A stretch of DNA of 62,059 bases from Crocinitomicaceae bacterium. GTDB taxonomy: Bacteria; Bacteroidota; Bacteroidia; Flavobacteriales_D; Parvicellaceae. How positions within the stretch are numbered: the stretch's first letter is position 1; each line of letters opens with the position of its first letter. The notes under the pieces are model-generated. The model was not told the DNA's origin. It worked only from the letters and a program-made list of their open reading frames with translations, and ran no database searches. Positions 54,525-58,196 of this stretch are shown piece after piece. The stretch spans positions 1-62,059 of the forward strand of contig PAZE01000031.1 in the NCBI GenBank assembly GCA_002716065.1, written 5' to 3'. A program made the position numbers and the translations under genes.

Positions 54525-55830
54525 TTGAGTAATATAGTTGCCATAGTAGGACGACCCAATGTCGGAAAATCTACACTTTTTAATAGATTAGTGGGGGCTA
54601 GAAAGGCCATTGTGAAAGAGGTAAGTGGCGTCACTAGAGATAGACATTATGGAAAATCTAATTGGAATGGCAAGGATTTTTCCGTAATTGATACCGGAGG
54701 ATATGTTACTGGATCTGATGATATTTTTGAAGGAGAAATACGAAGGCAAGTAGAAATTGCTATTGATGAGGCTAATGTTATTCTTTTTATGGTAGATGTT
54801 GAAACTGGGGTTACTGATTTAGATCAAGCAGTAGCATCTGTACTTCGAAAATCTGTAAAGCCTGTTTTGGTTGTTGCCAATAAAGTAGACAACAATGATC
54901 GTTTAAACGATATATATGAGTTTTACAATTTTGGCTTAGAAGAGGTTTTTGGAATTAGCTCTATTAATGGTGCAGGTACAGGCGATCTATTAGATGCAAT
55001 GGTAACCAAATTTTCTGATGATGAACCTTCTGAAGATTTGGGGCTACCTAGGATAGCAATTGTTGGAAAACCAAATGTTGGAAAATCTTCACTCACCAAT
55101 GCTTTACTAGGAAAAGAAAGAAATATTGTAACTGATATTTCAGGAACAACTAGAGATTCTATTGACACAAGATACAATGCTTTTGGTTTTGATATGGTGC
55201 TAGTAGATACTGCTGGAATTAGAAAGAAAAGCAAAGTCCATGAAGATATAGAGTTTTACTCTGTAATGCGAGCAATACGAACTATTGAAGATTGTGATGT
55301 TTGTCTATTTATGATTGATTGGGACTGAGCCTGTGCAAAATCAGGATATGAGCATTTTTTCTGTTATTGAAAAAAATAAAAAAGGCGTTGTTTTGTTGGT
55401 TAACAAATGGGATTTAATTGATAAAGACACCTCATCTACTCGAAAATATGAAGAGTCTATAAGAGAGCGAATGGCTCCATTTACTGATTTACCTATAGTT
55501 TTTATTTCTGCATTAAATAAACAACGAATACATAAAGCTCTTGAAACAGCAATGGAAGTTTATGAAAATAGAACTCAAAAAATACCTACCTCTAAAATAA
55601 ATGAGGTGATGCTGGAAGCTATTCAAAAAAATCCACCTCCTTCATACAAGGGTAAATACATAAAAATCAAGTATGTAACTCAGCTACCAACACATTCTCC
55701 ATCTTTTGCTTTTTTCTGTAACCTCCCTCAGTATATAAAAGATCCATATAAGCGATATATAGAAAATCAACTACGGGATGCATTCAACTTTAATGGTGTT
55801 CCTATTCGTATTTTCTTTAGAAAGAAATAA
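54525..55830 (+). CDS. der: GTPase Der (EngA), broken by a one-base insertion near 55320
   Basis: Ribosome-assembly GTPase with two tandem G domains (GRPNVGKST near residue 9, GKPNVGKSS near 180) and a KH-like C-terminus. The first frame stops at TGA 55326-55328 after MIDWD; the second frame continues as [19 protein letters not shown] through NKWD to the KH domain. Removing one T at 55319-55320 restores [12 protein letters not shown], matching the family consensus MIDATEG-x-Q-D, and a 434-residue protein of normal length. The TTG start (ATTGAGT) would be ATG with one T fewer. An essential gene should not be broken, so an error is the first explanation. Confidence 0.93.
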
Positions 55831-55885: not shown

Positions 55886-57139
55886 TTATAACCCAAATGC
55901 AGTTTTAACTTTTTCTGTATAGTTCAGCTCTTCCCAAGGGAATAGTTTAACACTTACCTTTTGAGTTTTTCCTGCAGCATCTTTAAATTCCTTCTCTACC
56001 TCTTTACATTCTCTTCCCATGTGCCCGTATGCAGCTGTTTCTGAATAGATAGGAGTTCTTAGGTTAAAACGGCTCTCAATAGCGTAAGGACGCATGTCAA
56101 AGATGTCTTCAAGCTTTCTAGCGATTGCCCCATCAGATAGGTCTACTTTAGATGTACCATAGGTGTCTATATATAACCCCATTGGTTTGGCAACACCAAT
56201 AGCATAGGCTACCTGAACAAGTACTTCATCACATAATCCAGCAGCAACAACATTTTTTGCAATGTGTCTAGTAGCATATGCAGCAGAGCGGTCTACTTTA
56301 CTTGGGTCTTTACCAGAAAAAGCACCACCACCGTGAGCTCCTTTTCCACCGTAGGTATCAACAATAATTTTTCTTCCTGTTAATCCAGTATCTCCATGTG
56401 GTCCTCCAATAACAAAAATTCCAGTAGGATTTACGTGGTAAGTAATTTGGTCGTTAAATAAGCCCTGGATGTGAGTAGGTAACTTAGCTTTAACTCTAGG
56501 GATTAATATGTTAATAACATCAGCTTTAATCTTATCTAGCATTTGCTGCTCACCAGCAAAATCATCATGTTGGGTAGAAATAACAATTGCATCAATTCGA
56601 ACAGGTTTATTGTCGTCAGAATATTCAATTGTTACCTGAGATTTAGAATCAGGTCTTAAATAAGTAATTTCATTGTTTTCTCTTCTTAGAGCAGCAAGCT
56701 CTTTTAATAGTAGGTGAGAAATTTCTAATGGTAAAGGCATGAAACTTTCTGTTTCATTGGTAGCGTAACCAAACATCATTCCTTGGTCTCCTGCACCTTG
56801 CTCTTCTTTTACTTGTCTTTCAACACCTTGATTAATATCTGGAGATTGTTCATGAATAGCGGAAAAAACTCCACATGAGTTTCCATCAAACATGTATTCA
56901 CTTTTGGTGTAGCCAATTTTATTGATTACATCTCTTGCAATCTTTTGAACATCTAAGTAGGTAGTAGATTTTACTTCTCCAGCTAATACAACCTGACCGG
57001 TAGTTACAAGGGTCTCACAAGCAACTTTAGATTCAGGGTCAAAAGCAAGAAAATTATCTATTAATGCATCTGAAATTTGATCGGCAACTTTATCAGGATG
57101 ACCTTCTGATACCGATTCTGAAGTAAATAAATATGACAT
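55886..57139 (-). CDS. metK: S-adenosylmethionine synthetase
   Basis: Makes SAM from methionine and ATP, 417 residues. Motifs: [52 protein letters not shown] and [19 protein letters not shown]. It has the roughly 30-residue longer middle region seen in many Bacteroidota. It is preceded by a SAM-II riboswitch, so feedback by its own product is expected. The convergent der gene ends across a terminator. Confidence 0.98.
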
Positions 57140-57193
57140 TCTAGTTCAGTTTAAATAAAAAATAATCAGGATAACTGTTTGGAGAGTTGCAAG

Positions 57194-57247
57194 GGATTAA
57201 ATTTTAGCTTTTTTAATGTGGTTGCAAGCAATCAAATCAGTCCACCT
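57194..57247 (-). ncRNA. SAM-II riboswitch upstream of metK
   Basis: On the minus strand the leader reads GTGG-AC-TGATTTGATTGCTTGCAA-CCAC-ATTAAAAAA-GCTAAAA. The P1 arms GTGG (57245-57242) and CCAC (57221-57218), the conserved UGAUUU, UUGCAA and the downstream GCUAAAA (57208-57202) match the SAM-II consensus for the pseudoknot. The last element lies about 60 nt before the metK ATG, and no terminator follows, in line with translational control. SAM-II is known mainly in Alphaproteobacteria and Bacteroidota. The call is by eye; a covariance search would settle it. Confidence 0.85.
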
Positions 57248-57257
57248 GTATCGATCG

Positions 57258-57265
57258 CAAATGTA
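57258..57265 (-). promoter_or_regulatory. metK -7 promoter element
   Basis: TACATTTG on the minus strand is a perfect TAnnTTTG match, placed so that transcription would begin near the first base of the SAM-II aptamer (about 10 nt downstream). A clear TTG -33 element is not seen. Confidence 0.65.
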
Positions 57266-57290
57266 GGAAATAAAGTGAGTTTAGAAATAA

Positions 57291-58196
57291 TTAGTTGGTT
57301 AATTTTTTAAAAATATCTTCTAATTTATCTTCTTCCTTTTTAAGAGTAAGAATTAAGAGTTCTTTTTTTGCTGCAAATTTTGCAATTGTACTTCTTAAAT
57401 CATTTGAGGAAGAAGATTCTATAAGCCATGAGGTTTTATCAATAGACTTAACTCTTGAAACACCATTGATCATTTCCAACTCTTTTTTAGCGATTTCTTT
57501 ATCAAATTCTACATGAATAAGCTCAGTGGCTTTATTTTTTTCTTGAATGGTAGAAACCCCATCGTCAGCAACAATTTTACCATCTTTAATAATAATAACA
57601 CGATCGCAGATGGCTTCTACTTCTTGCATTATATGGGTAGAAAGCAATACAGTTTTTTCTTTACCAAATTCTTTAATTAATTTTCGTATTTCTACCAATT
57701 GGTTAGGATCTAATCCACTTGTGGGTTCATCTAAAATTAAGACTTCTGGATTATGCATCATAGCTTGCGCTAGGCCAATTCGCTGCTTATACCCTTTAGA
57801 AAGCATTTCAATTTTTTTATGCTGCTCTTTTTCTAATCCAACCAGCTTAATAATTTCACTAACCCTTTCGGCTTTATTTTTTATTTCATGAATTGAAGCA
57901 ATAAATAAAAGAAACTCTTTAACATGCATTTCCATATATAATGGATTGTGTTCAGGAAGGTAACCTACTTTCTTTTTTACTTCAAGTGGATTTTCATTTA
58001 CGTTAATTCCACAAACAGTGGTTTCTCCACTTGTGGAGGGAATAAAACAGCTAATGATTTTCATAGTGGTTGTTTTTCCAGCGCCATTTGGACCAAGAAA
58101 ACCAACAATTTCACCACTTTTTATTTCAAAAGAAACATTATCTATCGCTTTTTGTCCATTATAGATTTTAGTGATATTTTTAACAGAAAGAGCCAT
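57291..58196 (-). CDS. gldA: Gliding motility ABC transporter ATPase GldA
   Basis: A 301-residue ABC ATPase of the GldA family, part of the GldAFG transporter that is required for gliding in Flavobacterium. Walker A GPNGAGKTTTMKI, signature LSKGYKQRIGLAQAMM, Walker B LILDEPTSGLDPNQ and STHIMQEVE are intact. The C-terminal 90 residues (after KNKATELIHVEF) form a family-specific domain. gldF and gldG are not in the window. It is far from gldKLMN. It ends at the metK leader and starts divergently from rsgA. Confidence 0.9.
   Translation of the reverse strand: MALSVKNITKIYNGQKAIDNVSFEIKSGEIVGFLGPNGAGKTTTMKIISCFIPSTSGETTVCGINVNENPLEVKKKVGYLPEHNPLYMEMHVKEFLLFIASIHEIKNKAERVSEIIKLVGLEKEQHKKIEMLSKGYKQRIGLAQAMMHNPEVLILDEPTSGLDPNQLVEIRKLIKEFGKEKTVLLSTHIMQEVEAICDRVIIIKDGKIVADDGVSTIQEKNKATELIHVEFDKEIAKKELEMINGVSRVKSIDKTSWLIESSSSNDLRSTIAKFAAKKELLILTLKKEEDKLEDIFKKLTN

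Follow-up and report, generated by a model that had tools for sequence, protein, structure and literature searches.

According to the excerpts of the literature on which we draw here, SAM-II riboswitches were noted in Bacteroidetes in 2007 (PMC2258182), and the model RF01726 is listed as a switch for "Bacteroidetes, marine" (Table 1 of PMC2864571). In S. meliloti, SAM-II lowers the expression of metZ via predicted termination and that of metA via a Shine-Dalgarno (SD) sequence (PMC9373788), while SAM-V is described as being without the final 3' helix of most SAM-II members (PMC2704228). The phylum itself was reported to be without SD sequences, with the structure of the start region tuning initiation (PMC6847099). 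The covered portions of PMC9723704 and PMC7366714 hold no mention of SAM-II or metK, and a literature search of partial coverage returned no account of an anti-aptamer strand or an expression platform in the metK leaders considered below.

The metK leader carries a SAM-II aptamer

The stretch of DNA analysed in this study (the window, 62,059 nt) is an entire contig, one of 56 in a genome of 2.33 Mb. On its minus strand, gldA is followed by a -7 box, the aptamer, 54 nt of leader and metK, with the following features:

57258..57265, minus strand: -7 box TACATTTG of the Bacteroidota type (sequence)
57194..57251, minus strand: SAM-II aptamer (RF01726, 54.2 bits, E 1.3e-7)
57242..57245, minus strand: P1 5' strand GUGG (sequence and RF01726 match)
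57222..57227, minus strand: conserved UUGCAA of the binding loop (sequence, RF01726 match, family loci)
57218..57221, minus strand: P1 3' strand CCAC (sequence and RF01726 match)
57203..57208, minus strand: conserved GCUAAA, 3' strand of the pseudoknot (sequence, RF01726 match, family loci)
55886..57139, minus strand: metK, methionine adenosyltransferase (SAM synthetase), the putatively regulated gene (TIGR01034, 512.6 bits, cut-off 309.4)

Scanning the complete window against Rfam with cmscan assigned 57251-57194 to the "long loop" SAM-II model RF01726 (cut-off 44 bits), the alignment spanning model positions 1-60 of 60, and this is the only RF01726 match in the whole genome at E up to 0.001. 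The match coincides with the SAM-II riboswitch that a preliminary description had placed at 57194-57247. That description had named RF00521 for the covariance check, a model which yields only 14.8 bits at this site (cut-off 36) and thus misses the element, so that a literal use of this check would have led to a correct finding being discarded; the SAM-V model gave no match here up to E 5. We regard it as confirmed, at the level of sequence, that the metK leader carries a SAM-II riboswitch of a known class in a known phylum, and the aptamer probably binds SAM.

The architecture proposed earlier holds in part. P1 is present as GTGG/CCAC (57245-57242 paired with 57221-57218) and is followed by UUUG, UUGCAA and GCUAAA in the expected order, but not all conserved blocks are there: the 3'-terminal CUG/CAG helix is missing, and the base ahead of GCUAA is an A, as in 15 of the 27 aptamers of the window's taxonomic family, where the model has a U. 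The same helix is lacking in all 27 family aptamers and in all three of family f12, while 26 of the 27 aptamers of families f6 and f7 possess it. Helices of 4-5 bp (GATTG/TAATC in the window) could replace it in some family members, but not in others. The RF01726 score does not require this helix. P1 itself reads GUGG/CCAC in 25/27 family aptamers (the exceptions being L026 with GAGG/CCAC and L027 with GUGG/CUAC) and in 3/3 of f12, and GAGG/CCUC in 27/27 of f6 and f7, i.e., a change on both sides of the helix. Some f7 aptamers (L120, e.g., GTATACTGATTTCAGTAATAC, as well as L122, L124, L129 and L132) feature an extra hairpin between P1 and GCUAA.

The -7 promoter reported just ahead of the aptamer could be retraced to TACATTTG at 57265-57258, which we compare with TAnnTTTG, presumably the Bacteroidota -7 consensus. 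In 54 of 57 loci, an equivalent box precedes P1 by no more than 40 nt, and transcription of the window's leader probably starts around 57250-57254. A second, downstream promoter at an extra UUGCAA was considered as well; TAGATTTG was seen by eye in L002 and L004 only and is therefore not general. The upstream neighbour gldA (58196-57291, minus strand) matches TIGR03522 with 418.7 bits (cut-off 402.6), and the gap of 54 nt to metK places the aptamer in the leader of a SAM/methionine gene. Beyond metK, an apparent GTPase gene at 54525-55830, putatively der/engA, is split into the overlapping frames 54525-55328 and 55315-55830, reflecting a frameshift or a sequencing error.

Conservation of the locus among relatives

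RF01726 matches occur in 27 of the 39 genomes of the window's family, 26 of them above the cut-off, and in each of the 27 loci metK comes next, 30-96 nt past the aptamer. Across the phylum, 69 of 392 sampled genomes (the window's own included) have a match, 62 above the cut-off; metK is present at 30/30 of the class-level loci read, which are the best-scoring 30 of the 69 matches. The idea that SAM-II in front of metK allows feedback on the SAM-making enzyme itself thereby gains support from the significant RF01726 match, from this constant gene order and from the promoter-like -7 box just ahead of the aptamer. Furthermore, of the 80 named contigs nearest to the window's MetK, 45 contain the core, with genera ranging from Flavobacterium and Polaribacter to Bacteroides and Porphyromonas; this count reflects a sequence pattern and not the covariance model.

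Of the 12 family genomes lacking a match, metK was not seen in six and is cut by the contig end in one. The remaining five (G013, G021, G036, G037 and G038) possess metK along with its leader, and as neither the model nor inspection by eye revealed an aptamer there, these are likely to be true absences. One of them, G021 of genus g6, retains a promoter-like TACATTTA box upstream of metK (L138) and has lost the aptamer that other g6 members carry.

These five aptamer-less leaders, together with the lost 3' helix, are what could be expected if the window's element had decayed to a relic or matched by chance and had no function. We consider this hardly credible, as the match has an E of 1.3e-7 and the core blocks are preserved in nearly all 27 family loci while the remaining parts of the leader vary.

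A leader strand complementary to the aptamer

Directly downstream of the aptamer, the leader contains a further element:

57166..57193, minus strand: putative anti-aptamer strand, complementary to 57249-57221 (-19.5 kcal/mol, z -3.46, p 0.003; 300 shuffles)

The mean pairing energy over the 300 leader shuffles was -10.9 kcal/mol, and z amounts to -2.26 when the whole aptamer core serves as partner. The downstream strand takes up the P1 5' strand and the binding loop, so the two folds are mutually exclusive and 57193-57166 would act as an anti-aptamer that competes with SAM binding. The hairpin formed by this pairing also appears in the free fold of the 145-nt window leader, a fold which as a whole does not stand out from shuffles (-23.5 kcal/mol, z -1.27, with 15/200 shuffles as good).

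The strand reappears across the phylum and changes along with the aptamer. In the family, z lies below -1 in 24 of 27 leaders (mean -2.07), a set which includes L027 (z +0.34), whose Ns excluded it from the tests of start accessibility, start pairing, terminators and U-tails. With the whole core as partner, z falls below -1 in 45 of 56 leaders from four families. For a further 44 leaders from named species, none of them identical or more than 0.9 alike to the 57 used earlier and all inspected before the test, from which L028 had been excluded because its leader is identical to that of L013, the mean z was -2.09; 42 were below 0, 34 below -1 and 24 reached p <= 0.05, with the reservation that the genomes are related and not independent, which makes the p-values too good. 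Two controls gave values close to zero: reversing the aptamer half resulted in a mean z of -0.17 (7/44 below -1), and pairing aptamer-less metK leaders with a random aptamer in one of -0.24 (10/35 below -1).

Specificity for the own aptamer points in the same direction. The own aptamer outperformed the mean of those of other species in 34 of the 44 named leaders and in 22/27 of the first set, although in genera g2 and g6 swapped partners pair almost as well. Individual substitutions illustrate this covariation: relative to GUGG in its sisters L018 and L024, L026 carries GAGG, and in its downstream strand their A is replaced by U, thus matching its own GAGG although that very change breaks P1 of L026. 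Likewise, L125 carries G where L118 has A, with C instead of U on the opposite side, i.e., a compensatory change.

Models of regulation

Taken together, we consider it likely that the element represents a SAM-sensing off switch for metK equipped with an anti-aptamer strand. The transcript would begin just ahead of the aptamer, so that the SAM-II pseudoknot could fold first. With SAM being plentiful, the bound pseudoknot would be locked and metK expression would go down; with SAM being scarce, 57193-57166 would pair with 57249-57221, break P1 and the binding pocket and leave metK on. The locked state might exert its effect at the level of translation, of Rho-dependent termination or of RNA decay. 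Repression at high SAM levels is also the direction expected from physiology for metK. Points against this model are the unremarkable fold of the whole leader (z -1.27), the almost equal performance of swapped partners in g2 and g6, the relatedness of the genomes, the missing CUG/CAG helix of family members, which may bear on their SAM affinity, the U-rich stretch described below, a start-region pairing at the level of shuffles (mean z 0.08) and the missing terminator.

With regard to the latter, the earlier statement that no terminator follows proved correct: a scan for intrinsic terminators in the window from 57000 to 57400 revealed none, and a looser script applied to 56 leaders returned a single candidate (L108). 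The anti-aptamer hairpin could itself be a terminator, in which case SAM would turn metK on. U is indeed enriched after the helix in 19/26 leaders of the window's family (p 0.003), which weakly fits this opposite sign. However, f7 behaves the other way round (U above average in 5/19), the tails of L018, L024 and L026 are rich in A, the terminator scan of the window was empty and positive feedback on a SAM synthetase is implausible, making this reading very improbable.

Translational control had previously been deduced from the missing terminator alone, and it did not find support in the family, since sequestration of the start region was no better than in shuffles (mean z 0.08, n = 26; window z 0.12) and was rejected for this group. 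Because of the 54-nt gap, the aptamer itself does not overlap the metK start site. An SD-like motif was not found near the start codon of the window's metK, and AGGA, GGAG or GAGG occur within the last 20 nt before AUG in 0/27 family leaders and 1/30 others. Nevertheless, the same aptamer could act on translation in another way, if the SAM-bound state frees the downstream strand, which then pairs just before the AUG and keeps the ribosome out. Leaders of family f6 show complementarity to the bases that precede AUG (mean z -2.05 over n = 8; six at or below -2.1, the others at -0.05 and -0.93), and the stretch involved overlaps the anti-aptamer strand. In the SAM-free model, the start region is also easier to open on average (mean cost lower by 1.0 kcal/mol, 40/56), a comparison that comes without a shuffled control and on which we do not lean, as the start gains further pairing options once any strand is released. 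Given that such pairing is absent from the window's family (mean z 0.08, n = 26) and from f7 (0.34, n = 19), we treat this possibility as tentative and rather less probable than not for the window.

An alternative option could be Rho-dependent termination, where SAM binding would leave a C-rich, G-poor leader strand single-stranded and available for the loading of Rho. The genome encodes the RNA-binding domain of Rho, and the leader past the aptamer contains 13 C and 5 G in the window (family mean 9.9 C and 4.6 G). The C excess, however, follows already from complementarity to the G-rich half of the aptamer, and we hold this route to be doubtful.

Regarding the phylum as a whole, we lean slightly towards the view that SAM-II switches of Bacteroidota metK genes act via a lineage-matched anti-aptamer strand rather than via SD masking or a terminator, and that the f6 strand, which is predicted to have the aptamer and the start-codon region as alternative partners, would constitute a complete SD-free mechanism.

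Co-occurrence with SAM-I

The same genome also harbours a SAM-I riboswitch (RF00162, 80 bits; L144, G000:C6:84898-84998) in front of an ORF resembling the N-terminal part of metH. Of the 27 SAM-II-carrying genomes of the family, 21 also contain SAM-I, as do 61 of 68 further SAM-II genomes, and G028 has both on its single contig; in 2007, as far as the covered text of PMC2258182 goes, no species with both classes was found. None of 34 SAM-I loci examined features metK, and the two classes may divide the pathway between them. In G067 (C1:1273624-1274021) and G419 (C16:219086-219511), SAM-II and SAM-I lie back to back on opposite strands with some 170 and 240 nt between them, as though both classes were served from a single intergenic region.

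Significance and comparison with described systems

The riboswitch itself adds one more genome to a known list. The present analysis contributes the conserved anti-aptamer strand and the observation that the window's family is without the end helix. In a phylum described, in the covered part of PMC6847099, as devoid of SD sequences, one riboswitch class thus stands before one gene together with a conserved competing strand. Some members of Flavobacterium and Chryseobacterium show the same core before metK at the level of the sequence pattern, and riboswitch action on SD-less genes becomes testable in these culturable genera.

As far as the covered portions of the respective papers allow a comparison, SAM-V (PMC2704228, PMC6061858) resembles the window's family in lacking the final 3' helix, but it is proposed to hide an SD sequence beside the aptamer, and the window has no match to its model up to E 5. 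The alpha-proteobacterial SAM-II (RF00521), including the S. meliloti metA and metZ switches (PMC9373788), has its core motifs in common with the window's aptamer, which nevertheless scores 14.8 of the 36 bits required; those switches control metA through an SD sequence and metZ through a predicted terminator, and neither feature was found here. Relative to RF01726 (PMC2864571), the window's family is without the 3' CUG/CAG helix and the window is 2 bases shorter between P1 and GCUAAA, while the covariance match over the full model, the shared phylum and the order of P1, UUUG, UUGCAA and GCUAAA link the window's aptamer to this group.
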